A DNA stretch of 64,000 bases, from positions 336,001 to 400,000 of the forward strand of contig JAWPHD010000298.1 of assembly GCA_037043455.1 (NCBI GenBank), given 5' to 3'. This stretch comes from Cyrtodaria siliqua. Its lineage: Eukaryota; Mollusca; Bivalvia; Adapedonta; Hiatellidae. The position numbers and the translations under genes were made by a program. The notes under the pieces were generated by a model that saw only the letters and a list, made by a program, of their open reading frames with translations, was not told the DNA's origin and searched no databases. Shown piece after piece: positions 2,543 to 64,000 of the stretch (position 1 is the stretch's first letter; every line of letters starts with the position of its first letter).

Positions 2543-3375
2543 TTGGCATTAGATATATGTAAATCTAATGCTGCTTTAGCAGCACTATCAGCTCTATCGT
2601 TACCACGTATGCTTACATGGCTTGGAAGCCAGCAGAAAATAATAACATTATCAACTATAAGAGAATTGTACTTTTCTAAAAGAGCACAACTGGGTTATCA
2701 TATTTCATATTACCCAGTGCTTGAAAAGATGAAAGGGAATCAGAAAATATTACAAAATTGTCATCATCAGATTCCTGAATATAATTTAAGGCAAGTTCAT
2801 TGACCCTTAAGTTCAGCTGAAAAGATAGAAGCCTTGTCAGACAGGCGGCTCTTTATGCTGTGTTTGTGAACAACAGCTGTTGCAGCTGCTTTATCTCCAT
2901 CTTTAGAACCATCTGTGTATATATGTTGAAAGTTACTGTATTTCGATTGAATTTCATTAAATTTGCTTTGAACGAAAGTAGGGTCTGTACTGGATTTGTT
3001 ACTATTACAAAGATCGAAAATAATTGTTGGTGTTTCCAAAGTCCAGGGTGGAAGTTGCGGTACTTTGTACTTGTCAATCAAATTTAGGTCGATTTCAGTG
3101 TCTCTTAATTTTGGTTTAATACGAAGACCAAATGGTCGAATGACCTTCGGTTTTCGATCAAAAAGAGGTTCATAACTAGGATTAAAAACATTATCGAAAG
3201 TTGGTTTTGAAGGGTTAGATTTTAATTTAATGGCATATTGAAGGGCTAATTTGTCCCGTCTATGAGACAGTGATGGTTCATTAGCTTCAACGTATATACT
3301 TTCGGCTGGTGATGTACGAAAGGCACCTAAGGCGAGTCGTAATCCTTGATTATGTATAGGATCGAGCATCTGCAA
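2543..3375 (-). pseudogene. LINE RNase H domain and C-terminal tail, broken
   Basis: At 3375-2797 the minus strand reads a connector containing LDPIHNQGLRLALGAFRTSP, then the RNase H start IYTDGSKDGDKAAATAV with its first catalytic aspartate. The domain continues in other frames below 2797 (an IFSDS motif near 2740-2750). A tail with a Cys-rich segment lies near 2230-2410. Stops and frame changes show this is a decayed copy. Confidence 0.75.
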
Positions 3376-3462
3376 GTATGATTTGCGAGTCGATCCATAT
3401 AATATTGAGCCGTAGTCCAGCTTGGATCTGATAAGAGATCTATAAAGTTGTAAAAGTACTTT

Positions 3463-3700
3463 ACGATCTGCTCCCCAATTAGTGTTTGCAACAACTTTAA
3501 ATAAATTAAGAGTAAATTAAGAGCTTTAAGGCACTTGGCCTTCAAGTATTTAAGGTGTGGTATAAACGTCATTTTACGGTCACGATCTGCTCCCCAATTA
3601 GTGTTTGCAACAACTTTAAATAAATTAAGAGTAAATTAAGAGCTTTAAGGCACTTGGCCTTCAAGTATTTAAGGTGTGGTATAAACGTCATTTTACGGTC
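3463..3700 (-). repeat. 119-bp tandem duplication inside the LINE
   Basis: 3463-3581 and 3582-3700 appear identical base for base. The duplicated stretch encodes part of the RT thumb region. Lack of divergence suggests a recent event or an assembly duplication. Confidence 0.85.
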
Positions 3701-3701
3701 G

Positions 3702-4657
3702 AAAAACGGTCGAAAATAAGACCACGGAATTTTTATTTCATCCACTACTGGTATTGGTGACCCATTCAGTGTTAGATATTCACAATGTTTACGTAGTTGA
3801 TAAAAGTGCATACACTTAGTTTTAGAATTAGAAAATTTAAAACCATTTTCATCCGACCAGATCTGAAGTTTATTCAGACATTGTTGCAGTTGTCTCTCAA
3901 TAGTGTTCATGTTTTTTGCACGACAACATATAACAAAGTATATAGAGAGCAATCCACACCAGGATTGATGCATTTAACTATACTGTTATTTTTTATATTA
4001 AAAAGGGTGACAGAGAGTATGCTTCCCTGTGGCACACCCATCGCCTGTTCATGAATGTCAGAGAGGGTTGAACCTATTTGGACACGAAACTGTCTATCCT
4101 CTAAGAAATTCCCTATACAAATTGGTAACCGGCCTCTAAGACCAAGGTCATAAAGATCATTCATGATACCGTACTTCCACGCAGTATCATAAGCGTTCTC
4201 CAAGTCAAAATATACAGCGACTAGATGTTCTTTCTTTACGAAAGCTTCCCTAATAAATGTTTCAAATCGAATGAGATTGTCTGTTGTGCTTCGTTGGCGC
4301 CGGAATCCACTTTGATACTTTGTTATCCGCTTGTTGGATTCCAGGTACCAAACGAGTCTCTCATTAATCATTCCTTCCATGGTTTTACATATACAACTCG
4401 TTAAAGCAATAGGGCGATACTTGATTGGGTGCGTCTGATACTTTCCAGGTTTGGGGTGGGGGGTGGGGGGGAGGGGGGGGGAAGTTTCCGGTCACCCAAA
4501 CCTTATTAAATATATCAAGAGGCGTAAAGAGACAGGTTTCAGGTAAATGTTTTAATAATTGATAATGGATATCATCAGGACCAGCTGATGTAGCATGGGC
4601 CTTTTTAAGGGATTCTCGAAGTTCTTTGAGAGTGAACAGTTTATTGTATTTCTCCAA
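3702..4657 (-). pseudogene. LINE reverse transcriptase domain, broken
   Basis: The minus strand encodes RT in pieces. At 4657-4385 there is the finger region with a TSAGPDDIHYQLLKHLP motif. At 4380-3907 there are AVYFDLENAYDTAWKYG (catalytic region A) and GVPQGSILS (region B). The YVDD-type catalytic box near 3930-3950 is disrupted by a frame change. At 3973-3702 lies the thumb, with a NGFKFSNSKTKCMHF motif typical of this RT class. A C/G homopolymer expansion at 4452-4484 distorts the first segment. Not functional. Confidence 0.8.
4452..4484 (+). other. G homopolymer expansion in LINE RT
   Basis: Runs of 4 to 9 G separated by T or A inside the RT ORF. On the coding strand they add a proline/histidine run not expected in an RT domain. 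Confidence 0.6.
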
Positions 4658-5223
4658 ATTTTTCCACTTGAAATTCAGCTTCTTCTGTTTTTATAGTTTC
4701 TTATTTTTTAGAAAATTTGGTTGACAATTTTCAGAAGAAGAGTTTTTAGAAATAGTTTCTGCCAAAGTGTTTGTAATATCTTTGACAGATTTTATATCAT
4801 CATTATCAGTTTTAAGATGATTTACACAACTAGAATTACCTTTACCGTTTATTTTCCGGACCATGTCCCACGTCTTCTTAAGGGATGAGCGAGAGTTAAG
4901 CCTAGAGACATAAGATCTCCATGATTTCCTCTTGCTATCCTTAATAGTGCGACGGGCTTTCGCACGAAAACTTTACGATCGCTGACTGCCGTTTTGCAGT
5001 CATCATCGTACCATGGTTTATGTGAGCGTTTTAGATTTGCCGAGGTTTTTGGAATAGTTTGATCAGCTATATCATGAAGGGTTTTGGTAAAAAGAGCAGT
5101 TGCGTCTTCGACATCCTCGAAAACGGAAGGCTTTAATTGTTCCTCACAAAGAGATTGAAATGTATCAGCTTTGCGAAGTTTCCATCGTTGCGTTTTTTCG
5201 AGAAGTGGAGGGCCGATATTTTC

Positions 5224-43950: not shown

Positions 43951-44662
43951 ATAAAACTAGATGTATTTCCTGGTCTTTTCTTTTCCTGCTCTTTTCTGAT
44001 ATGAGTATGAGTGACAGTTTAGTTATACTTGGTTGTAGTTTTATGTATACATTGATTTAACAGTTACTGATTACTAGTATGCGAGTGGTTTTGCGGTCTG
44101 ACAATTTCGTTTAACGTAATTTCAAAACGTAGCGGAGACGTAAAACATTATTTTAGACCGTAAAAACAACGACATACCGTCCTAGATTGAAAATTTTCGT
44201 TGAAAGGGTCATAACTTAACATGCTTTCGTAATTCATCAACATTTACCGTTCTTTGTCCTATCATAATTTATTGTAGTGGCATTGGAGTAACTACAATAC
44301 ACTTCCAGGGAAGACGTACACATATAGAACGGGTAGAACCATACGACTGTAACATTTTCCTTCTGAGACATTTCTGAGAGTGTTTGATGATATATGTGCC
44401 TTAATCAAGTTATTATACGCCAAATAAAACCAGTAAGGATACATTTACATATTCTAAATGCATTGTACATATAGTCCAACTAAGAGCTGACTAAGAGTTC
44501 AAACAAATTGCACATGTAGATTTTTTATTACCTCCTGTAAATAAAGGCAAACTCATGCTCAAGTTAATATTCCAATTGTCAAACATGGCAGGTCGTGTAG
44601 ACTACACATTGTTAACGTAAATACTGCCAAATGGAGATCAAATTCGTCTTCCTGTTCAACCT
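43951..44662. other. no recognisable feature
   Basis: Nothing supported. Confidence 0.5.
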
Positions 44663-44668
44663 TTATAT

Positions 44669-45078
44669 ATGCTTGTAAAACCAGTTACTTGTAAACCAGT
44701 TACTTGTAAACCAGTTACTTATAAACCAGTTACTTGTCAACCAGTTACTTATAAACCAGTTACTTGTCAACCAGTTACTTATAAACCAGTTACTTGTAAA
44801 CCAGTTACTTGTCAACCAGTTACTTATAAACCAGTTACTTGTAAACCAGGTTCTTGTAAACCAGTTACTTATAAACCAGTTACCTGTCAACCAGTTACTT
44901 GTAAACCAGTTACTTGTAAACCAGTTACTTATAAACCAGTTACTTGTAAACCAGTTACTTGTCAACCAGTTACTTATAAACCAGTTACGTGTCTACCAGT
45001 TACTTATAAACCAGTTACTTGTCAACCAGGTTCTTGTAAACCAATTAATTGTAAACAAGTTACGTGTAAAACCAGTTA
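44669..45078 (+). repeat. 15-bp minisatellite, about 27 units
   Basis: Units CCAGTTACTTGTAAA, CCAGTTACTTATAAA and CCAGTTACTTGTCAA. Open in frame on both strands (KPVTC/KPVTY on plus), as expected for a 15-bp period. I do not call it a gene. Confidence 0.9.
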
Positions 45079-45117
45079 ACCCGATAGACTGAATGTTTAT
45101 GAGTTCAAATTTTGAAT

Positions 45118-51774: not shown

Positions 51775-52731
51775 TCTGATATTTATTGGACTCTTCTCAG
51801 AGCCAAAGTAAATTAAACCCAACATCGCCTTTGTATATAATGTATACACTTATATATCTATACTCCTGATATAAATCGGACTCTTCTCAGAGTCAGGTTA
51901 TATAAATACATCTATCTTCAGGGTATATAATATTTACAGTTATATATCTATATTCCTGATATGTATCGGACTTTCCTCAGAGTCAGGATATATAAAACGT
52001 AACATCTCCAGTGTCTATACTCTATATATTTATATATCTATATACTCTTGATATATATCGGACTCTCCTCAGAGTCAAGTTACATAAAACCTAACAACTC
52101 CAGTGTCTATACTCTATATATTTATATATCTAAACTCGTGATATATATTGGGCTCTCCTCAGAGTCAGGTTATATAAATACATTTATCTTCAGGGTATAT
52201 AATATTTACAGTTATATATCTATATTCCTGATATATATCGGACTCTTCCCAGATTCAGGTTATATAAATACATCTATCTTCAGGGTCTATACGCTTTACA
52301 TGTATGTATATATAATCCTGATATGTATCGGTCTCTCCTCAGAGTCAGAATATATGAAACATAACATCTCCAGTGTCTATACTCTATATATTTATATATC
52401 TATATACTCCTGATATATATCGGACTCGCCTCAGAGTCGAGTTACATAAAACCTAACAACTCCAGTGTCTATACTCTATATATTTATATATCTATACTCG
52501 TGATATATATTGGACTCTCCCCAGAGTCAGGTTACATAAAACCTAACATATCTAATGTCTATACTCCTGATATATATTGGACACTTCTCAGAGCCAAAGA
52601 CAATTAAACCTAAAATCGCCTTTGTCTATAATATATACAGTTATATATCTATACTCCTGATATATATCGGACTCTCCTCAGAATCAGGTTATATAATTAA
52701 AAACAACATATTCAGTGTGTATACAACTACA
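51775..52731 (+). repeat. ~105-bp minisatellite, about 9 units
   Basis: Unit blocks: CTCCTGATATATATCGGACT, CTCCTCAGAGTCAGGTTATA, TAAATACATCTATCTTCAGG, GTCTATACTCTATATATTTA. Units vary between ~85 and ~110 bp. The array stops abruptly at ACAACTAC just before the Polinton-like element. Confidence 0.85.
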
Positions 52732-52797
52732 GTCGGGCCGTTTTTTTTTTTTTACCGGAAATGGTTCAAGTGGTTTTTCAAGTGGTTGACGTCATCA

Positions 52798-53176
52798 TTC
52801 CCACGCGACCGTGAGTAATCGTAGCTCACGCGACCGTGAGTCATCAACGTCAGGTGATCACGAGTCATCATAGCCCACGCGACCGTGAGTCATACGTTTA
52901 CATCATTAAGTACATACGCCACTTAAGAACGACGGTTATTTCAAATACCACCAATCAACGTCAACTTGTACGAATTTCAAGTACAGACAACGTCATCAAG
53001 TACCGACGCCACTTGAGAACGACGGTTATTTCAAATACCACCAATCAATGTCAACTTGTACGATTTTCAAGTACCGACGCCACTAGAGAACGACCGTTAT
53101 TTCAAATATCATAAATCAACGTCAAAACGTACGAACGTCACTTAAAAGTCAAGTACCGACTCCACTTGAGGACGAC
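52798..53176 (+). repeat. subterminal repeats of the Polinton-like element
   Basis: Three copies of CCACGCGACCGTGAGTCAT-type sequence (52800-52890). About three units of ~66-75 bp follow, with GCCACTTGAGAACGACGGTT, ATTTCAAATACCACCAATCA and ACGTCAACTTGTACGA (52905-53170). Possibly part of a terminal inverted repeat. Confidence 0.7.
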
Positions 53177-53311: not shown

Positions 53312-53788
53312 GTAAGTCATTAAATGTATAGCAAATGTTAATTTGTAGTTACAAATATAAATATACAAGTATATCGCAAGTGCGAGAGATAGTATTATCA
53401 ACCGACAATTGTCTAGCCTTCTGAGCATATTCTCTTCACTAAACAATCAGAATGTAGCTTTCTGAAATTTTGGGTGTATTTGACTTTTTGTATATGAGTA
53501 TTGCTCACTGTTTTCAAGTATATACTAAGTGTATAGTAAATGAGAGAAACTATAAAATATAGTTTTTTTTCATTTAACTTTATTGTTTTCGCGTTTTATT
53601 TTTTATTTTTACATTTTTTTAATTCACAATGTCTTCTAGTTCTTAAATTTTTTTTTTGTTAGATCCTTTAGTTTTTCTCTCACTTTAACCTGAAACGATA
53701 CGACATAAGTAATTTTTAATACTCATAGCTGTACAGGAGACTAACAAAGCTTACTGGACCTGATAATTCTATCCACAAGAAGTCGTTC

Positions 53789-56700
53789 ATGGTACAAATT
53801 GTTAACGACGACCAATTGTGTATGGCCAGAGCTATCGGTGTGGGATTGGCCCAGCTTTGCATCATCCCGCACGAGGAGTGGAAGAAGGTCAAGAACGACT
53901 TCAGGCACCTGACCAATCCAGAAATCCTGGTTCAGGAGCGAAAAATATCTGCCGAAGGTTACAAGCAAATTCAAAAGAAAGCAAATTTAGAACAGAAAAA
54001 TGTGGCTACACTCCTCTGTCTGAAAAGCAAAGTACCCACAAACAGACCCGGGTCCCTGAATAACATTCACGCCTTCGAAAAAGCTCTCCAGGTCCGTATC
54101 GCCGTGGTGGCCGCTTCGCTGGGCAACACGTTTATTCGGGTACCCGACAACGAGCACGAAGACTGGCCTCTGCTCTACTTGTACTTGGTGGACCACAAAG
54201 GGATCAGCCATTTTCATGCCATTGTCAACATAACCGGCTTTTTCAGTGCCCATTATTTTTTGCGAGCGCTGCTTTAAACAGTACAATACGAACACCGAGC
54301 ATCGGTGCGAAACCACGTGCTTGACCTGTAAAAGTAACGACTGCCGGGAAACGGATAATTTGGTGTCCTGCCGTGCCTGCCATATGACGTGTCGGTCCCT
54401 GGAATGTTTTGAACGACACAGAACCAGTAAACCCAAACGAAACGGGGACGTAACCCTCTCTTCTTGCGACAAGTATTGTAAGAAAGTAGTCGACAGAGAA
54501 ACAAGGTCAGACGACAAGCACCAATGCTCCGAATGGATGTGTAAATGCTGTCGATCTTGGGTCACGGAGGGTCACCGGTGCTATTTATTTGCCGACAAAC
54601 CGAAGAAACCGGTGACCAAATTTATATTTTTCGACTTTGAGGCCACCCAGGACCAAAAGGCTCAATGTAAGGGAGGATATTCGCCTAAACGATGTTGCCT
54701 GTCACCGTGCAAGGACTGCACCAAATGTCAGAATTGTTTTCAGTCCTGGTGCGGTCAACCGAGGCATGTGCCCAATTTCGTGGTTGCCCAGACCGTTTGC
54801 AATTATTGTATGGACGAACCCCTGGACGCATGGCCTACCTGTCATCATTGCGGTACCCGATGCTCGGCTTGTGATACATTCAACAAGGAACTTGAAGTAT
54901 ATCAGAATCCCCCGTGCACCGACACGTGCGGTTTCCGAGAGGTTATCTTCCAGGGAGATACCACACTCGACGACTTTGGAAACTGGCTATTTAGTCCCCA
55001 ACACAAGGATGCTACCGTGTTGGCTCACAATAAGAAGGTAAGCAATACGTATGATTAATATTTTGTTTTGTTTTTGTTTTTGTGCTAAATATTTGAATTA
55101 GGTACTAATATATATATATATATTTTAATCGGTAGTGATACGTAATAGGATTTTTTTTTTAAATATTGGGCTGTCTCTATTTTAGGGATACGACGGTGTC
55201 TTCCTGATGGAGTACCTGTTAAACAAACAGCGTGCATCCAAGTAAAGTCATCTACAACGGGTCCAAAATCATGTACATGGAAGTAGGTAAAGGCCTGCAT
55301 ATACGCGTACTTGATTCCATGAACTATTTTCCAATGCCTTTAAGATCCCTCCCGAATGCTTTCGGTTTGAAGGAATTGTGCAAGGGATACTTCCCGCACT
55401 TTTTCAATACCCGGGAACACCAGCGGTACGCCGGCCCCTACCGGATCCAAAGGCTTACGAGTCTGACTTTATGTCCAAGGGAGAGAGGACAGCCTTCCTC
55501 CAGTGGCACGCGGAGAAGAAGGGAAGCGGCGTTATATTCGACTTTAGGGTGGAAATGGAATCATACTGTCGATTCGACGTGGATATCTTGAGGAGGGCGA
55601 GCTTACAATTTAGGCAACTGATGATGGACACGACGAACGTGGACCCCTTTAAGTACGTTACCATTGCCAGCGTCTGCATGGGCATCCACAAAACGAGGTA
55701 AACGCATTTTGTAAACTGTAATAATTAAAATAACGATTAAAATAAATAAATAAGTGAACAAAATACACGAATAAATAAAAAAATAAAAAAAGGTTATACC
55801 CTATACATAATGTTTTCAGGTTTTTGGAAGGGCATTATAGAGTGACCCTACAACGTCTCAACGGTAAGCAAGACAACTGGATTTTAGCCAAATACGATGA
55901 CAAAGGTTGGCACGTGCGCCACGATAGTAAGAAGTGGGAACCGATTGAAGATGACGTCACTGTGATCAGTACAAAACCCGTTTCGTCTTTGATCGCCCAA
56001 GTCTCTAGCGCTGGTTACGTCCAGAAGGACAATTTTAGCAAAGCCTCCATACAATGGCTAGAATACGAAATGGAACTCGCTAGAAGGAAAGGAAAGCCCC
56101 TCCATATCAAACACGTCGTCAACAGCCACGAAGTACACATTTTGGGTACAAAGTATAAAGTGGACGGACGCTGCGGGGACACCGTTTTCGAATATCACGG
56201 TGAGTTATATATTTCCGTTAACATATATATGATAATTTCCATACGCGATAATTAGAAAAAAATTAGTTACGATTGAATAATTTTATCGCTTCAGGATGTT
56301 TGTGGCACGGGTGCAAAAGGTGTTTCCCGGACCGTACCGTGAAGAATCCTAAAACTGGACATTCCCTCGATGAACTTTACGCCCTCACTATGATTAAAAA
56401 GAAAGCGTTAACCGACATGGGCTTCAATTACGTCTGTATCTGGGAACACGATTGGCTGAAAAAAGTCCAAAAGGTCCCCGACGTTCGAGACTTTGTGACC
56501 AAACTAGAAATCCAGGACCGACTGGATCCCCGGGAATCCTTCTTCGAAGGCCGCACCAACGCCGCCAAGCTTTATTACAAAGTCCAGGAGGGAGAGCAAA
56601 TCAAATACGTTGAGTTTACGAGGTAAATATACATTTTTAAACTTTTTGTTGTTGTTTTCTTTAGTTATTTAATACATTTTAATACCTCCTGTTTTATTTT

Positions 56701-58176
56701 TTTATTTTATTTTTTTCAATTTGTACCCGTACGTAAACAAGTACAGCCGGTATCCCGTGGGCCACCCTGAGATCATCACGAACCATTTTGATGATATCCG
56801 TTCCTACTTTGGGATCGCAAAGGTCAAGATAATCGCTCCTAGAGGATTATACCATCCGGTTCTGCCGTATCGATCTAATGAGAAGCTCAAGTTTCCGCTG
56901 TGTCGAACGTGCGCGGATGACGAAAGTAGAACCGACTGTCGCCACACCGATGCACTGAGGGCTTTTCAGGGTACGTGGTGTACCCCTGAAATTGAAGAGG
57001 CCATGAACAAAGGGTACACATTACTCAAAATCTACGAGGTTTACGGCTGGACAGAGTCATCCCAATATGACACTCAAACGAAAAAGGGAGGGTTATTCAC
57101 CGTCTACGTGAACACCTTCTTGAAATTTAAGCAGGAAGCCAGCGGCTGGCCCGAATTTTGCAAAAACGATGAAGTCAAAAAAAGTATGTTCGAGATTACT
57201 TTCAAAAGGAAGGAGTGATACTCGATCCAGAATACATAAAAAAAAATCCTGGTCTCAGAGCTCTGGCCAAGCTCTGTCTAAATTCCTTCTTGGTAAAATT
57301 CGGCAAGCGACTCAATCAGGGTGTGAGCGAATTTATCCACGAATCGGAGTTTTATAAACTACTGACGGACCGTACGAAAAAGGTGAAGGATTTTCACATT
57401 GTGAACGAGGAACACCTTCACCTCGAGTATGAGCACCAGTCCGGGTGCGTGCCGGAAGATATGAAAACCAACATCTTCCTGGCCACCTCCCCCACCTGTT
57501 GGGCTCGACTGAAATTGTACAGGTCCTCGATCAACTGGTGACCGAGTACTGTACTACGACACGGACTCCGTGATCTATGTTAGCAGGCCGGACCAGTACG
57601 ATCCTCCGCTGGGCGATTATTTAGGTAGGTAAGATGTGTTTACTAATTTGGAAATTCTTTTATTGTAATTTCGATATTATGTATTATTTTTTTTTTATTA
57701 TTATTATTTTTTATTTATTTTTTAGCATTTTTTTTTCTTTTTTTCTAATCATATACGTTAAATGTTCATTTATTACAGGCGAACTGACCGACGAATTGGA
57801 TCACGGAGATTACATCGTGGAATTCGTAAGCGGGGGTCCCAAGAATTACGCCTATACGACGGCAAAGGGCAAACAAACCTGCAAAATTCGGGGTTTCAGT
57901 CTCAACTACACCAACGCCCAGTTACTGAACTTTGACAGCGTCAGAGACATGGTGAGGCACGTCGACCCCGACCAACCCAGCACTTACAACAAGAGAAAAC
58001 TGGAAGACGGTGAACAACCTCCGTCCAAGGTCATCCTTACCACCAACCCAAACAAAATTTCCAGAGAAAAGTACAACAACCTTCTATACAATAGGGAAGA
58101 GAAGAAACAATATAGGGTAGTGTACGACAAGAGGGTGATCTTGGACAATTATGACACCTTACCGTACGGTTATTAG
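53789..58176 (+). CDS. polB: protein-primed-type DNA polymerase B, spliced, frame-broken
   Basis: Family B polymerase expected to replicate the element from its ends. Domains in order: N-terminal NDDQLCMARAIGVGLAQ; a Cys/His-rich stretch (54270-54560); exonuclease motifs FFDFEATQD (about 54630), YDGVF (55189) and YCRFDVDIL (55565); palm motif A LYPYVN (56721); region B KLCLNSFLVKFGKR (57270; the usual W-G after NS is L-V here); palm motif C YYDTDSV (57552); and the terminal YDKRVILDNYDTLPYGY. Introns: 55038-55185, 55698-55819, 56200-56294, about 56623-56719 (donor good, acceptor ends AA not AG) and 57625-57778. Reading frame changes near 54255, 55225, 55442, 57180 and 57520-57540, several at homopolymer runs. 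As read it is not a continuous gene. Confidence 0.85.
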
Positions 58177-58626: not shown

Positions 58627-58906
58627 ATGAACGCGTGCCCCAAATGTCACCGTCCATTTTCGAGAAAGGACGCCATGCTCAGACATAGAAGAAATATACA
58701 CGGCGAACCACAAAAGTAAAAGACTCCTGATGAGAACTTACACTACCCTCCGCCGACGCCGCCTCAGGAGACCGTACACTATTTTCCGCCGCCGCCGCAG
58801 CCGCCGCAGGAGACCGTACACTACTTTCCGCCACCGCCGCCGCCGCCGCTGGAGACCTTACACTACCAGCCGCCGCCGCCCGCCTCAGGAGACCTTACAC
58901 TAATCT

Positions 58907-58946
<40 letters not shown>

Positions 58947-59705
58947 TGGACACCTTACACTCCCATCCGCCTCCGCCTCAGGATATACCTTACACTACCA
59001 GCCGCCGCCGTCACCGCCGCTGCCTCAGGAGACCTTATACTACCCGTCGCTCTCAGACCAGTCGAGTCTTCTACCGCTCGAACCTTGTTCAAGTATTTTG
59101 ATCGCGAGTCCGACGGGTTCCGGTAAAACTCGACGGACGTTTACTTTCCTCGAGCAATTGAATTACCTGTATCAGACCCCACCGAGAAAAAACATGTACT
59201 GTTACGGTATATACCAGGAACTGTTCGAAGACATGGAAAGACAAATTCCTAGATTCACGTTGCATCAAGGTTTACCTTCCATGACGAAAATAGAAGACTT
59301 TGCGGACGGTGAGCACGATCTCATTGTATTGGATGACCTCACGCACGAGGTTCTAGAAAGTAAAAACATGGAGTTGCTATTCACTCAGGGTTGTCATCAT
59401 AGAAAACTGAGCGTGGTGTTTATTACTCAAAATATTTACGGAAGGGCAAATCGGCCAGGACAATCGCGCTGAACTGTTGGTACATGGTGCTCTTCAAGAA
59501 CATTCGAGGAACCTCACAGATTCAAACCTTAAGACGTCAGCTGTTTCCGGGAAAATCTTGTGTATTGACGGAATCGTTAAAAGATGACACTAAAAAGCCT
59601 TTCGGTTATTTGGTGCTTGATTTGACACCCAGAGGAATAGAAGATTATCGCTTAAGAACGAATGTATTTCAAAATGAAGATATTGTAGTGTATAAAAACT
59701 TATAA
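58627..59705 (+). CDS. zinc finger / proline-rich / packaging ATPase, broken
   Basis: Residues 1-30 form a C2H2 finger (CPKCHRPFSRKDAML, then RHRRNIH) ending at TAA 58717-58719. The same frame stays open from 58720 to 59472 across a proline-rich repeat region (58738-59060) into the ATPase. Walker A is ASPTGSGKTR at 59101 and Walker B is HDLIVLDD at 59320. The frame changes at a G-run near 59446, and the end (59484-59705, MVLFKNIRGTSQIQTLRRQL) is read in another frame. A C2H2 finger before the HerA/FtsK-like ATPase is a known layout in aquatic-animal Polintons. The TAA could be a true stop or part of a GTAAAAG splice donor. The ATPase would power genome packaging. Confidence 0.8.
58738..59060 (+). 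repeat. proline-codon minisatellite in the ATPase gene
   Basis: Units of about 40-50 bp contain CCGCCGCCG runs and CAGGAGACCNTACACTAC (QETxHYxPPP). Between about 58880 and 58985 the same units are read one frame over (SGDLTLISATAAA), and the original frame returns at 58987 without a stop. Confidence 0.8.
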
Positions 59706-59708: not shown

Positions 59709-59737
59709 ACTGATATGATTTTACAGTTTTTGAAACA

Positions 59738-60064
59738 ATGAGTCGACTCGTGAAAAGTCATTGGGCATATTTTCAGTTGTTAATGACAAAGACGTCCGAC
59801 TTTCAGAGACAACGCTTACTGGAAACCATTACGAACGACCAATTGAGGGCTTTGGTTCAAATCGTTGTCAATTTTCTACAACGTGTGCTGACAGTGACAC
59901 CCTCCGTACTGACGACATTGGAGAAACACAAACACCTGTTGAGAAACATAGCCGACACGTCGATCACTCTCGGTAGAAAAAAGAAACTGTTACGTAGACG
60001 AGGAAAAAACATAGTCGAGTTTATAAAAGCGGTGGAACCGTCTCTGAGAAATTACATAAAATGA
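59738..60064 (+). CDS. small basic Polinton protein, copy B
   Basis: 108 residues. FQRQRLLETITNDQLRALVQ, then a helix-rich centre, then HKHLLRNIADTSITLGRKKK and LLRRRGKNIVEFIKAVEP. The arrangement matches a small protein frequently found between ATPase and integrase in Polintons and looks paralogous to 58222-58572. No known enzymatic motif. Its stop overlaps the next start (ATGA), suggesting coupled expression from one transcript. Confidence 0.7.
   Translation: MSRLVKSHWAYFQLLMTKTSDFQRQRLLETITNDQLRALVQIVVNFLQRVLTVTPSVLTTLEKHKHLLRNIADTSITLGRKKKLLRRRGKNIVEFIKAVEPSLRNYIK
60022..60029 (+). promoter_or_regulatory. TATA-like box (TATAAAAG)
   Basis: 39 bp before the ATG at 60061, inside the preceding ORF. 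One base different from TATAAGAG; could be coincidental because it is coding sequence. Confidence 0.3.
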
Positions 60065-60369
60065 GTGGTATACAGAAATCGGTTTTGCAACCTTTTGATA
60101 AATACCAAAGATTAATCGGTGTAGTGAACCCCACAATTCAAGACAACCGCCAGTCGAGCCCGCGTTTACCGGCCACGAATGATCTGGAAGAAAAGCTTAA
60201 ATCTGAAATAATAGACAGGAGCAATAAAAACGATTTGCAGACTGAAGCAAAGAGGAGGAAAATAACGAGATCAGACGCAAAGTACACAGGGCCACCGGGG
60301 ATTCCAGCGAAGGTAGAGAAAAAGATAAGACAAAAGAAAGCCGAACTGAAACGGTGGATTGTCGTGTAA
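60061..60369 (+). CDS. small coiled basic Polinton protein
   Basis: 102 residues: a short N-terminal VLQPFDKYQRLIGV motif, an acidic/basic middle predicted helical (DLEEKLKSEIIDRSNKND), and a C-terminal GPPGIPAKVEKKIRQKK. Proteins with a [L/V]VPxxKYxxL start and a PPGxPAK end recur in Polintons between capsid or ATPase genes and the integrase; the role is unknown. The last codons overlap the possible integrase start at 60354. Confidence 0.6.
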   Translation: MSGIQKSVLQPFDKYQRLIGVVNPTIQDNRQSSPRLPATNDLEEKLKSEIIDRSNKNDLQTEAKRRKITRSDAKYTGPPGIPAKVEKKIRQKKAELKRWIVV

Positions 60370-60371
60370 TC

Positions 60372-61100
60372 ATGACCAACTGGAAAGAATATTTGGCGTC
60401 CATCTATTTTGACGCTAGCCATGCCGGAAGTTACTGGGGACCTGAAAAAGTATACAAAGTCGTAAAATCGGAAGGGAAATTTAAAATAGGACGATACAGA
60501 ATAAAGAAATGGTTACAAGACCAGGAATCTTATTCTCTTACCAAAGGAGCCCGGCGACGATTTCAGAGGTCAAGAGTGATTGTAGAAGGAGTGGACAGTA
60601 TGTGGGATATGGATTTGATGGATATGAATGATTTGTCTGATCAAAATGACGGTTACAAATACGTTATCCTGTGTATCGATGTCTTTTCGAGATACCTCTG
60701 GTGCGAGCCTTTAAAAACGAAAACGGGCGCAGATGTTGTTACGGGATTAAGAAGCATATTGGCAGGAAATAGACGACCTGGGGTCATCAGGATGGACAAA
60801 GGGAGAGCATTCAAAAACGAGAAAGTGTCTAAATATCTCAACAGTCTCGGCATTCACCGTTTCGTCACGGAAAATGAAACAAAGGCAAACTACGCAGAAA
60901 GAGTGATCAAAACAATAAAACATAAACTATTTCGCTATATGCTGAAGAAGAGATCCCACAGTTACGTCAATTCCTTAGCCAATATTGTTCGCAGCTACAA
61001 TCGTACCGCCCATCAAAGTTTAGGACAAACGCCTGCATCCATCACAAAAGACAATGAAGCGGAAAGTCGATACGAGCAGTATCAAAGAAGACAGAAATAA
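60372..61100 (+). CDS. retroviral-type (rve) integrase, catalytic part
   Basis: Inserts the element into host DNA. The ATG at 60372 avoids overlap with the upstream gene; an in-frame ATG at 60354 is the alternative. N-terminal helical part (FDASHAGSYWGPEKVYKVVK), then the RNase H-fold core. Catalytic residues, numbered from 60354: D87 in WDMDLMDMN, D148 in IRMDKGRAFKN and E182 in NYAERVIKTIK, with the usual 33-residue gap between the last two. The frame ends at 61100. The expected SH3-like and chromodomain continuation is read one frame over from 61054. Confidence 0.88.
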   Translation: MTNWKEYLASIYFDASHAGSYWGPEKVYKVVKSEGKFKIGRYRIKKWLQDQESYSLTKGARRRFQRSRVIVEGVDSMWDMDLMDMNDLSDQNDGYKYVILCIDVFSRYLWCEPLKTKTGADVVTGLRSILAGNRRPGVIRMDKGRAFKNEKVSKYLNSLGIHRFVTENETKANYAERVIKTIKHKLFRYMLKKRSHSYVNSLANIVRSYNRTAHQSLGQTPASITKDNEAESRYEQYQRRQK

Positions 61101-61458
61101 AACCTACAGATTTAAAATAGGTCAAATGGTACGTGTGTCCCACGTGAAGCACGTGTTTGATAGAGAATATTCTCAGAAATGGACGGGCGAATTGTTTAAA
61201 ATTAAACGAAGATTAAAAAGGGAACAACTTCCGGTCTGCATTCTCCAAGACTGGTCAGGGGACGATATTGAGGGAACGTTCTACGAACCGGAACTGCAGG
61301 CCGTGAATGTGGACGACAACACGGAATATAGTATAGAAAAAATAATCAAGAAACGTACTAAACATAAACAACGGGAAGTTCTAGTCCGATGGTTACATTG
61401 GCCAAAACGTTATGACTCATGGATCTCGGAACAAGATATCCAGCGCTATAGTTTATAA
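61054..61458 (+). CDS. integrase C-terminal SH3-like and chromodomain part
   Basis: Sequence FKIGQMVRVSHVKHVFDREY, then KWTGELFKIKRR, FYEPELQAVNVDDNTEYSIE and a chromodomain KKRTKHKQREVLVRWLHWPK followed by DSWISEQDI. This is the C-terminal half of Polinton integrases, normally fused to the catalytic part. Here it overlaps the catalytic ORF by 47 bases in a different frame, so either a frame change near 61085-61095 or a frameshift mechanism separates them. The chromodomain probably targets chromatin during integration. Confidence 0.85.
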   Translation: MKRKVDTSSIKEDRNKTYRFKIGQMVRVSHVKHVFDREYSQKWTGELFKIKRRLKREQLPVCILQDWSGDDIEGTFYEPELQAVNVDDNTEYSIEKIIKKRTKHKQREVLVRWLHWPKRYDSWISEQDIQRYSL

Positions 61459-61499: not shown

Positions 61500-61751
61500 A
61501 TGGATAGACAAGATAGTCAGGTGTGGCGAATGCTCGGTAGTAAAATACCGAAAGAAGAAATCGTGTACTTTTGTCAAATTGGCATCGTGTACATCATCAT
61601 TATTACATCGATCGTGAACTTGTCTTTGCAAAACGGAAATCCTGAGCTGTGGATTAGCCTATTGTGTAGTGCCATCGGATACGCCCTACCATCACCTTCA
61701 CTCAACAATGGAAAACGAACATTACCTATTTCTGAACAGCCAAAACTCTAA
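61500..61751 (+). CDS. small membrane protein of Polinton late region
   Basis: 83 residues: VPKEE-like start (SKIPKEEIVYFCQIG), a hydrophobic helix VYIIIITSIVNLSL, and a second apolar segment ELWISLLCSAIGYALPSPS. Short proteins with this exact pattern (two apolar segments ending in GYxLPSPx) are common in Polintons and adintoviruses; they may be virion membrane proteins, but the function is unproven. The 3' end overlaps the next ORF by 44 bases. Confidence 0.7.
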   Translation: MDRQDSQVWRMLGSKIPKEEIVYFCQIGIVYIIIITSIVNLSLQNGNPELWISLLCSAIGYALPSPSLNNGKRTLPISEQPKL

Positions 61752-62127
61752 GAATCAGTACTCGGACAACTCAGCGGGAGATTTCACGGTCGAACTACCA
61801 CACACCTATTCGCTGGATGGCCATTGGGAATGGGGTCTCAAAGAAATCGAAATATCCCTAACGGAGGATACAATGTTTTTGTGCTCAAATATTTGCCAAG
61901 AGTCCTACGCTGAAAACACCATGTTACCCGTGCTACGATTGTTGAGCAATGCCTCCAAGGTCAAGAAGAGGGAAACGTATTATCTTTTTAACGACCCGTT
62001 CTACGTAAAAGTAAAAACTAATACTCTGAACAGAGTGAGAATGTTTATAAGAAGAAGTAAGTTACAAGACATTGATAAGAACAATTCAACAGTACGTTGT
62101 ACGCTTCATCTTAGAAAACGGAAATAG
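61708..62127 (+). CDS. putative minor capsid (penton-like) protein
   Basis: The start chosen is ATG 61708 (an in-frame ATG at 61669 would add 13 residues). About 139 residues: YLFLNSQNSKNQYSDNSAG, DFTVELPHTYSLDGHWEWGL, KEIEIS. This is the N-terminal signature seen in Polinton late proteins (short LxSxxSxxxYxxNxxxxFTxxLPxxxxLxGxWEVGLxEI). Then LFNDPFYVKVKTNTLNRVRM and a C-terminal TVRCTLHLRKRK that reads like a beta-strand end. Assignment as single-jelly-roll minor capsid is inference; length is shorter than many homologues. Confidence 0.55.
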   Translation: MENEHYLFLNSQNSKNQYSDNSAGDFTVELPHTYSLDGHWEWGLKEIEISLTEDTMFLCSNICQESYAENTMLPVLRLLSNASKVKKRETYYLFNDPFYVKVKTNTLNRVRMFIRRSKLQDIDKNNSTVRCTLHLRKRK

Positions 62128-62153
62128 AACAGTGGGAGAGACATTTTAGACAA

Positions 62154-62453
62154 ATGGCCAATGGACAATTACGACTAGATCAACGCGGTGTATACGTTGT
62201 CAATGGAAACCAATCGGGTGGCGCAGCCCGGGAAACGGCGATAAAATTTGTAACGCCATTAGCCCAAGCGGTGGAATTGGCGAAATCTGAACTGAAAGAA
62301 AATGAAAAAGAGTATAAGGGGACACCTGTAAGACAGGAAAGGAGAGTTTATAAGAAACGGTCCAAACCGCAAAAGCGAAAAACCGATTTAATACCTAAGT
62401 CAAACAAAAAACTCCGTGTTCAAGATCTAGTGTGGACAGATAGAAAACGATGA
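62154..62453 (+). CDS. basic Polinton late protein
   Basis: 99 residues. An N-terminal GNQSGGAARETAIKFVTPLA-type segment is followed by a QAVELAKSELKENEKEYK helix and a Lys/Arg-rich tail (RRVYKKRSKPQKRKTD). Could be a DNA-condensing core or internal scaffold protein; no decisive motif. Its stop overlaps the next ATG (ATGA at 62450). Confidence 0.55.
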   Translation: MANGQLRLDQRGVYVVNGNQSGGAARETAIKFVTPLAQAVELAKSELKENEKEYKGTPVRQERRVYKKRSKPQKRKTDLIPKSNKKLRVQDLVWTDRKR

Positions 62454-62915
62454 ATACACACGGCAACGAATTGGCTTTATTTCAGCAACCGGAGGTAGAA
62501 TCGGGCACTCAGAAAAAAAGAATGGCTAACTTTACGACCTGTCAATTAACTCACCGAAGGTTCCTCCATCAAATTCAACGTGCCGGGAATCTCAATAACT
62601 TACATCGATTTGAAAAACACTTTACTGCACCTCAAACTGAAAATTGTCAAAGCTAATGGCGAAAACATTGCTACGGATGAACACGTAGGACTTATCAATA
62701 ATGTTTTACACAGTATTTTCTCGCAAGTGGACGTCAACGTGCAACATCATCCTACCAGCGATGTAGCGACTAAGGTTCGATCTCAACAAAGGGCACACAC
62801 CCGAATAGAACTAAAGTTTTTGGAAGCACTACCCAACACCTGTACGGTGATCGTGTACGCTAAATTTCCCGCTCTGATGAAAATTGACGCCCGTAGGAAC
62901 GTCATTTTGGAATAA
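62450..62915 (+). pseudogene. major capsid protein remnant, internally deleted
   Basis: The start (NELALFQQPEVESGTQKK) and the following YIDLKNTLLHLKLKIVK and LHSIFSQVDVNVQ segments correspond to the N-terminal strands of the Polinton double-jelly-roll capsid protein. The end (HTRIELKFLEALPNTCTVIV, YAKFPALMKIDARRNVI) corresponds to its last strands. Together they span about 155 codons where homologues have roughly 450-650, so the central bulk is missing between about 62765 and 62800. The N-terminal part also changes frame at an A-run near 62513 and has a TAA at 62547-62549 in the second frame. It cannot make a capsid. Confidence 0.75.
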
Positions 62916-63373
62916 TGTATACTACGCTGAAGATAAAACATTTACTCAACAAGGATGCCGTTGTCAAACGACAATATGGAAGCGGGTGCGCCTCAGACAA
63001 GATACCTAGGCTGATTAGATTCCGTCCTAGAGTGTACATTGTCAATACGGACAAGAGTGGACAACCGGGGGTACATTGGGTGGCGTTTTACTTTCCGAGA
63101 CGAGGATCCGCCGAGTTTTTCGATTCTCTCGGACGTACCCCTGAATACTATCACGAACAATTTAAGACAGTGTTACTTAAAAATGGAAACAGATACGTTT
63201 ACAATAAATCTAAAATTCAACAATCGGGAACTGTGACCTGTGGACTTTATTGCTTATTTTACGCTATTCTTCGTTGTCACGGATGGACAATGAATAGGAT
63301 TCTGGATACTTTTGACACGATCAATTTAAAATTCAATGAACTATTTGTCAAACGATTTGTACGTCATTTGTAA
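62915..63373 (+). CDS. adenain-type cysteine protease
   Basis: 152 residues, intact. Processes capsid precursors in Polintons and adenovirus relatives. Catalytic residues visible: H54 in GVHWVAFYF, D70 in EFFDSLG, Q103 in IQQSGTVTC and C109 in TVTCGLYC, the C5 peptidase order His-Asp/Glu-Gln-Cys. Its ATG overlaps the stop of the capsid remnant (TAATG). Length is slightly below adenovirus protease (about 200). Its preservation next to a gutted capsid gene is notable. Confidence 0.88.
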   Translation: MYTTLKIKHLLNKDAVVKRQYGSGCASDKIPRLIRFRPRVYIVNTDKSGQPGVHWVAFYFPRRGSAEFFDSLGRTPEYYHEQFKTVLLKNGNRYVYNKSKIQQSGTVTCGLYCLFYAILRCHGWTMNRILDTFDTINLKFNELFVKRFVRHL

Positions 63374-63660: not shown

Positions 63661-63666
63661 TTTATT
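63661..63666 (-). terminator. polyadenylation signal AATAAA (minus)
   Basis: 98 bp after the minus-strand TBP-like stop and 68 bp from the plus-strand signal, giving a convergent gene end. Confidence 0.5.
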
Positions 63667-63763
63667 TACCCCGCTCAATACAGTACGCGAGGGATTAGGG
63701 CGGACCCCTCGACGTACTTTACAATAGTTGCATTTCGATTAAGATTGGCATACAAGTATGGTA

Positions 63764-63976
63764 TTATTGTCTTTCGTGTTTCAAACCCGTCATGAGTACG
63801 GCCCCCGAAGTAAAGCACGTAAAATGAACACCTTCCCTCTTAAACATGGCTGCTGGAAACAGTTCGGGTTCGTGACCTCCAGAATAATGTCGCACCCCTC
63901 TAGTTAAGTTCAATGAACCATCTATTTTAAACGGGGCCGAAATGGTAGAAATGTCAATTTTCTTTAAACGTACTTG
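63764..63976 (-). CDS. TBP-like repeat, C-terminal exon or fragment
   Basis: A 70-codon minus-strand frame, closed upstream by TAA at 63977-63979, so the rest must be spliced or lie in another frame beyond the window. It reads LKKIDISTISAPFKIDGSLN, then HEPELFPAAMFKREG, then VHFTCFTSGAVLMTGLKHER and stop. This follows one repeat of TATA-binding protein: the strand opening ([I/V]xxISTxxxxxKID), the EPELFP motif (identical to host TBP), and the FxSGxVxxTGxK strand that contacts DNA. Divergence elsewhere and the early stop exclude the host TBP gene itself. After the stop, another frame stays open for 32 codons, so the C-terminus may be frame-broken. It may be an element-encoded transcription factor. 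Confidence 0.6.
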   Translation of the reverse strand, partial: QVRLKKIDISTISAPFKIDGSLNLTRGVRHYSGGHEPELFPAAMFKREGVHFTCFTSGAVLMTGLKHERQ

Positions 63977-64000
63977 TTATCCCATCCTTTGAATTTTTCG

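Follow-up and report, generated by a model that had tools for sequence, protein, structure and literature searches.

A TBP gene carried by Polinton-like elements

The DNA analysed here (the window; 64,000 nucleotides, bases 336001-400000 of contig C298 in a searched genome of 2.88 Gb) ends in the decayed tail of a gene for a TATA-binding protein (TBP) that stands in several related Polinton lineages of the same genome. The evidence, which for the elements comes from this one genome, supports the TBP gene as a component of the element, located within the mobile unit in related elements. Judging from the encoded proteins and their neighbours, it is likely that the element uses its TBP, with a PC4-like protein, for transcription start at its own promoters.

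The window element and its TBP remnant

A Polinton-like element occupies the plus strand from ~52.7 kb to the right end of the window (Table 1). It has in common with animal Polintons (Mavericks) and adintoviruses an integrase with a chromodomain, a C5 protease, a family B polymerase, a terminal repeat and, weakly, a P-loop ATPase. By its place, a 417-aa gene of the related element L010 (L010:5876-7126), with its shortened counterpart in the window, is probably a capsid gene candidate; the L010 protein has no Pfam or PDB match, and the capsid and penton candidates, named by place, have no Pfam match. The window counterpart lacks the middle of the gene and is therefore a second sign, besides the state of the TBP gene, that the window element is defective. 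Elsewhere in the window, a tandem short-repeat tract (44621-45092) keeps two plus-strand frames open, with KPVTC- and NQLLV-type repeats.

Table 1. Features of the Polinton-like element in the window, in window coordinates
Feature	Position	Strand	Evidence
Terminal repeat, left end of element	52726..53047	+	91% over 322 bp to L114:67-387, which adjoins PC4 and TBP at the opposite end of the sister element
Protein-primed-type DNA polymerase B region, several separate open pieces	53729..57541	+	DNA_pol_B_2: 56673-57215 E 1.9e-8 (above cut-off); 55315-55698 E 8.8e-4 and 57173-57538 E 0.0059 (both below)
P-loop ATPase, packaging-ATPase-like	58720..59472	+	AAA_22 E 0.0013, Pox_A32 E 0.039, both below cut-off; kept in L018, L021, L028
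Small conserved element gene	59714..60064	+	Matches in L018, L028
Integrase, rve core	60246..61100	+	Pfam rve E 2.6e-11
Integrase, chromodomain part	61024..61458	+	Pfam Chromo E 5.2e-8
Conserved element gene	61618..62127	+	56% identity to L010; without Pfam match
Small conserved element gene	62115..62453	+	47% identity to L010
Short 121-aa form of the 417-aa L010 gene	62550..62915	+	Both ends match the L010 gene, middle missing
Adenovirus-type (C5) cysteine protease, convergent with TBP	62897..63373	+	Pfam Peptidase_C5 E 3.2e-6, above cut-off
AATAAA polyadenylation signal of TBP gene	63661..63666	-	Place conserved across copies
TBP-like gene remnant (C-terminal repeat and end of first repeat)	63719..64000	-	Pfam TBP; 91% aa identity to L114; in-frame stops

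The last feature before the right end lies on the strand opposite to the element, an open reading frame of 70 aa plus stop (63764-63976, minus strand) that corresponds to the C-terminal repeat of TBP. A sequence-only reading had recognized it by the landmarks EPELFP and FTSGAVLMTGLK, which are indeed present in the minus-strand frame, and had placed it at 63764..64000, of which the start is correct and the end is not, the frame running to 63976. The proposed identity is borne out by profile searches, with a match to the Pfam TBP family (PF00352; E 1.8e-4, 21.7 bits) that lies slightly below the cut-off of 22.9 bits and a best match among solved TBPs in the PDB of E 5.3e-6 (1mp9). The closest sister element fetched from the same genome, L114, has an uninterrupted TBP gene whose product is 91% identical to the window frame over 70 codons, the DNA being 90% identical over 577 bp. 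These identities, together with the Pfam and PDB matches, exclude a chance motif as the origin of the frame. The predicted structure of the window fragment alone has a pLDDT of 44.

Two in-frame TAA codons (63977-63979 and 63764-63766) bound the frame, and the TBP reading continues beyond both in the same frame, ending downstream in the terminal stop (63719-63721) and reaching position 64000 on the upstream side. Because these stops interrupt a reading that is open in L114, the window copy, which comprises the second repeat and the interrupted end of the first, is a broken remnant and does not encode a whole factor. Extension of the assembly past 64000 had been suggested; the record there consists of N, and only the end of the first repeat can be read in the window copy. 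Upstream exons, which had also been expected, are not part of this gene: the TBP genes of L010, L114, L117 and L029 each read from ATG to stop in a single frame of 169 codons, which excludes a spliced gene with a missing upstream exon. A promoter-recognition factor supplied by the element, as had been suggested, is ruled out for the window copy by its two in-frame stops; for the uninterrupted copies elsewhere in the genome it is the likeliest, though inferred, function.

The polyadenylation signal reported after the frame is genuine, as AATAAA starts 53 or 54 bases past the TBP stop in all five copies examined (window, L010, L114, L117 and L029), compared with a mean frequency of once per 674 bases on the same strand of the window. 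The TBP gene is also convergent with the protease gene, in line with the original description, the two stops being 345 bases apart in the window (341 bases in L010).

Uninterrupted TBP copies

Among the matches listed in the same genome, an open frame of 165 aa or more without stops is present at no fewer than 23 TBP places. The L002 TBP matches the Pfam family with E 6.4e-26 (90.5 bits, cut-off 22.9) over two repeats and TBPs in the PDB with E 2.3e-21, and the L114 TBP reaches 75.9 bits against the same cut-off in two matched stretches. All four of the phenylalanines that we take to wedge open TATA DNA are present in L010, L114, L117, L029 and L015, and both of those in the second repeat are kept in the window. 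The E-P-E stirrup motif, presumably the contact to TFIIB, is retained in the main lineages, with K-P-E in its place in L015. An Asn and a Val of the second repeat, which we assume to make base contacts in cellular TBPs, are replaced in L114, the window and L015, suggesting that the DNA specificity of the element TBP may differ from that of cellular TBP. The two-repeat saddle and the wedge phenylalanines are shared with cellular TBP and TBPL1 (L027 and L010 are ~34-37% identical to a fungal TBP). However, the element TBP differs from cellular TBP and from TBP-related factor 2 (TBPL1) in having a single exon and no long N-terminal domain, and from cellular TBP in that the second-repeat phenylalanines are closer by two residues.

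TBP inside the mobile unit

Three insertions (L010, L011 and L012) are 99% identical inward from L010:3017 and have unrelated flanks outside it, and L014 joins at the same edge. Inside the L010 edge follow PC4 (3329-3895), a BIR gene (3973-4299) and TBP (4567-5073), the TBP gene beginning ~1.55 kb inside the edge shared by L010, L011 and L012. The order in L114 is terminal repeat, PC4, TBP and convergent protease. The same repeat marks the left end of the window element and, in L114, the end that carries TBP, reading inward in both cases, and is also found in L115, L123 and L026; both terminal-repeat ends were never seen in one copy among those fetched, each of which covers one edge. Since the shared edge lies outside TBP in three insertions, and in view of the L114 order and the recurring neighbours, we conclude that TBP belongs to the element. 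The proposed location of a TBP-like gene at a Polinton end is thereby supported: in related elements the gene has the terminal repeat on one side and the convergent protease on the other.

A fragment or retrocopy of a host TBP gene, adjoining the element and outside it, would fit the presence of a mere fragment in the window and an element whose right end is unreadable past 64000. This alternative conflicts with the edge outside TBP in three insertions and with the same neighbours at many contigs. It also conflicts with the tree, in which the Polinton TBPs form one clade separate from cellular TBPs (support 100/99; 7 Polinton rows, with 2 eukaryotic and 8 archaeal ones for comparison, on long branches). 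Of the two host-type genes, which have short exons and are named from their translations, C2010 carries the canonical TBP and C23991 the TBPL1-like one. Both are on other contigs, and none of their four exon places is near a listed protease (10 kb). On the shared insertion edges and this last result we reject a host TBP fragment beside the element; the alternative is already refuted for the sister copies, and overall we regard it as scarcely credible.

Distribution in the genome

A search of the genome with the Pfam TBP profile, in which the best 150 of 161 candidates were scored, lists at least 93 matches that merge into at least 81 places, four of them the host exons and at least 77 non-host. 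Stretches of ~9 kb around the 20 top-ranked places contain a core Polinton gene in 17 cases, and the remaining three have PC4 (L020 with BIR; L025 and L026 with PC4 alone). A second sample, of 11 of the other 56 places (approximately every fifth, 2.8 kb each), has a core gene within ~1.4 kb in six (L113, L114, L116, L117, L120 and L121) and PC4 or BIR in the other five. No core, PC4 or BIR gene was found in any of 14 control stretches (window 1-39900).

The Pfam C5 profile gave no matches as a genome search, the controls included, and the window's own protease was therefore used as query. With the best 150 of 778 candidates scored, this query lists at least 138 matches at 122 or more places, the window ranking first. 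Each of the top 20 protease places, the window among them, has a TBP beside it (within 2 kb for ranks 2-20), and seven of those ranked 21-40 have one within 2 kb. A TBP lies within 10 kb at no fewer than 37 of the 122 listed protease places, 85 being without a listed TBP. From the opposite side, a listed protease lies within 5 kb of at least 36 of the 77 listed non-host TBP places, compared with 0 of the 4 host exon places. TBP is typical of lineages near that of the window, and absent or undetected in many others.

The PC4 domain (PF02229, cut-off 25 bits) was identified at 44.3 bits in L002 (E 1.2e-11), 77.9 in L025 (E 3.9e-22), 54.9 in L117 and 29.6 in L114, with a match to PC4 in the PDB of E 5.1e-6. 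It was detected in 9 of the 20 top-ranked stretches and in 9 of the 11 in the second sample (weakly in L120). PC4 was not seen in the window itself and neither L013 nor L014 has a PC4 match; TBP is usually, but not always, accompanied by PC4. By Pfam and PDB the domain is common to the PC4/Sub1 coactivator, from which the present genes differ in being element-borne and in having two PC4 stretches in several copies. A BIR gene of the inhibitor-of-apoptosis type lies between PC4 and TBP in elements of layout A, described below (L002:892-1230 and in L010 as above; Pfam E 3.4e-23), and is present in 9 of the 20 top-ranked stretches. The TBP of L114, a member of the window subfamily, has no such BIR match next to it.

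Layouts, divergence and selection

Three gene layouts were distinguished. In layout A (L010-L014, L027 and the window subfamily), TBP is near the end and convergent with the protease. In layout B (L015-L019, L021, L022 and L028), integrase, chromodomain, TBP and, where visible, the gene of the type at 61618 follow each other in one direction, and in layout C (L023, L024 and L029) TBP lies next to where the polymerase region starts, the copies being palindromic in arrangement. The divergence of TBP roughly tracks that of other element genes: identity between the window and L010 is 57% for TBP and 54% for the protease, and between layouts A and B 35-43% and 37-40%, respectively. An exception is the pair L010 and L027, with 81% identity in TBP and 52% in the protease, which may reflect that lineages of the element have exchanged genes at this end.

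Several structural observations were made on the fetched copies. Large palindromes of TBP-bearing ends (L029:21-7314, L026:1-5646 and L023:962-5409), with arms 94-100% identical and the polymerase region or PC4 on their outer sides, resemble the deletion forms that a linear protein-primed element would give by inverted duplication, or else are assembly effects. L016 and L017, 180 kb apart on contig C250, have 9271 identical bases in common, either through a large duplication of recent date or as an assembly repeat. A long open frame that by eye is reverse-transcriptase-like (L027:2-1495) lies at the element edge of L027, where the integrase is expected.

Codon comparisons show protein-level selection on TBP between lineages, with dN/dS of 0.17-0.26 at an unsaturated dS of 0.06-0.64 in six pairs among L010, L117, L029b and L014 (four stop-free frames, that of L014 without ATG at the usual place). 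The values for L010 against L027, L029 and L023 are 0.19-0.25, and silent sites are saturated in the comparisons with L114 and L015. Among very close copies within subfamilies dN/dS is higher, at 0.25-0.65, and reaches 2.6 in a single pair that has 11 differences; the value for the window and L114 is 0.51. Such values are as expected after insertion. The rise between close copies could also be taken, along with the stops or frameshifts in many copies, window included, as a trace of a TBP that was an element gene in one burst and is now a functionless passenger. Against this we set the low dN/dS between lineages cited above, between-lineage TBP identities on the order of those of the protease and the conserved AATAAA, and we consider a passenger gene very improbable.

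Putative role in transcription

The proposal that the element TBP serves transcription start has a demonstrated basis in homology, place in the mobile unit, recurrence, selection and a conserved mRNA-end signal. Under the mechanism that we favour, the element TBP would bind TATA-like sites of the promoters that the element itself carries and would recruit host TFIIB and RNA polymerase II, a step that the PC4-like coactivator would assist, with the outcome that the element is transcribed on its own terms. There is no RNA polymerase gene among the nameable element genes, which would make host RNA polymerase II the natural partner, and the PC4-like neighbour strengthens a role in transcription. 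TATA-like sequences were noted by eye, without statistical control, 5' of PC4 in L010 and 5' of TBP in L027, L029 and L023. The fuller version of this proposal, that several lineages of animal Polintons hold their own start kit of TBP and PC4-like protein with which they would divert host RNA polymerase II to element promoters, is in our judgement evenly balanced between true and false.

A real element gene might instead act against the host, as a decoy or competitor for TFIIB, TFIIA or host promoters that damps host transcription or silencing. The replacement of presumed DNA-contact residues in some lineages with the fold kept would suit such a decoy, as would the BIR gene beside TBP in 9 of 20 stretches, this region of the element being able to hold host-interaction genes. 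Retention of the wedge phenylalanines and of E-P-E in the main lineages (K-P-E in L015) speaks against it, and the PC4-like neighbour points to transcription, leaving the decoy unlikely. PC4 binds single-stranded DNA, and both the TBP and PC4 genes lie near the terminal repeat, which would agree with a service to element DNA itself instead of to transcription, namely bending or coating it when it is replicated or packaged. In layout B, however, TBP is not terminal and stands between the integrase and the next conserved gene, and in all cellular relatives known to us TBP specificity is for promoters; such a DNA service is in our view quite improbable. Use of TBP for transcription start at element promoters is the likeliest reading.

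Relation to known systems

TBP is common to nearly all eukaryotic transcription. To our knowledge, neither TBP nor PC4 is part of the described gene sets of Polintons/Mavericks or adintoviruses, and no TBP is known to us from a small DNA virus or transposon of animals. The collection of viral contigs contained no relative of the L010 TBP, of alignments A1 and A2 or of the window integrase, and phages contained none. As the window integrase is also matchless there, the collection says nothing on TBP in particular.

The open-licence PMC literature on Polintons, Mavericks and adintoviruses (subscription papers being outside this scope) yielded, in its accessible portions, no report of a TBP in a Polinton, in agreement with the sequence-only reading, and the word 'TATA' is absent from the accessible text of PMC4028283, PMC8097293 and PMC11071308. 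TBP is known from giant viruses, as the sequence-only reading noted: PMC11464507 lists it in the transcription gene cluster of a megavirus, which in addition encodes an RNA polymerase. In two further sources, TBP is given for 59% of mirusviruses (PMC10132985) and mentioned in viral elements of a green alga, linked to mirusviruses by the authors (PMC10675990). Virus-borne TBP is thus common to these groups and to the present elements. However, theirs are large protist viruses, whereas the carrier here is a small animal element with TBP and PC4 and no RNA polymerase gene seen.

Were the TBP to work at element promoters, the rules by which these Polintons are transcribed could differ from those for host genes, which bears on the awakening of integrated elements, on the gain and loss of host-factor dependence by viruses and on the rise of TBP-related factors. 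If true, promoter recognition would be in the hands of a small animal DNA element itself, in parallel to the giant viruses of protists.
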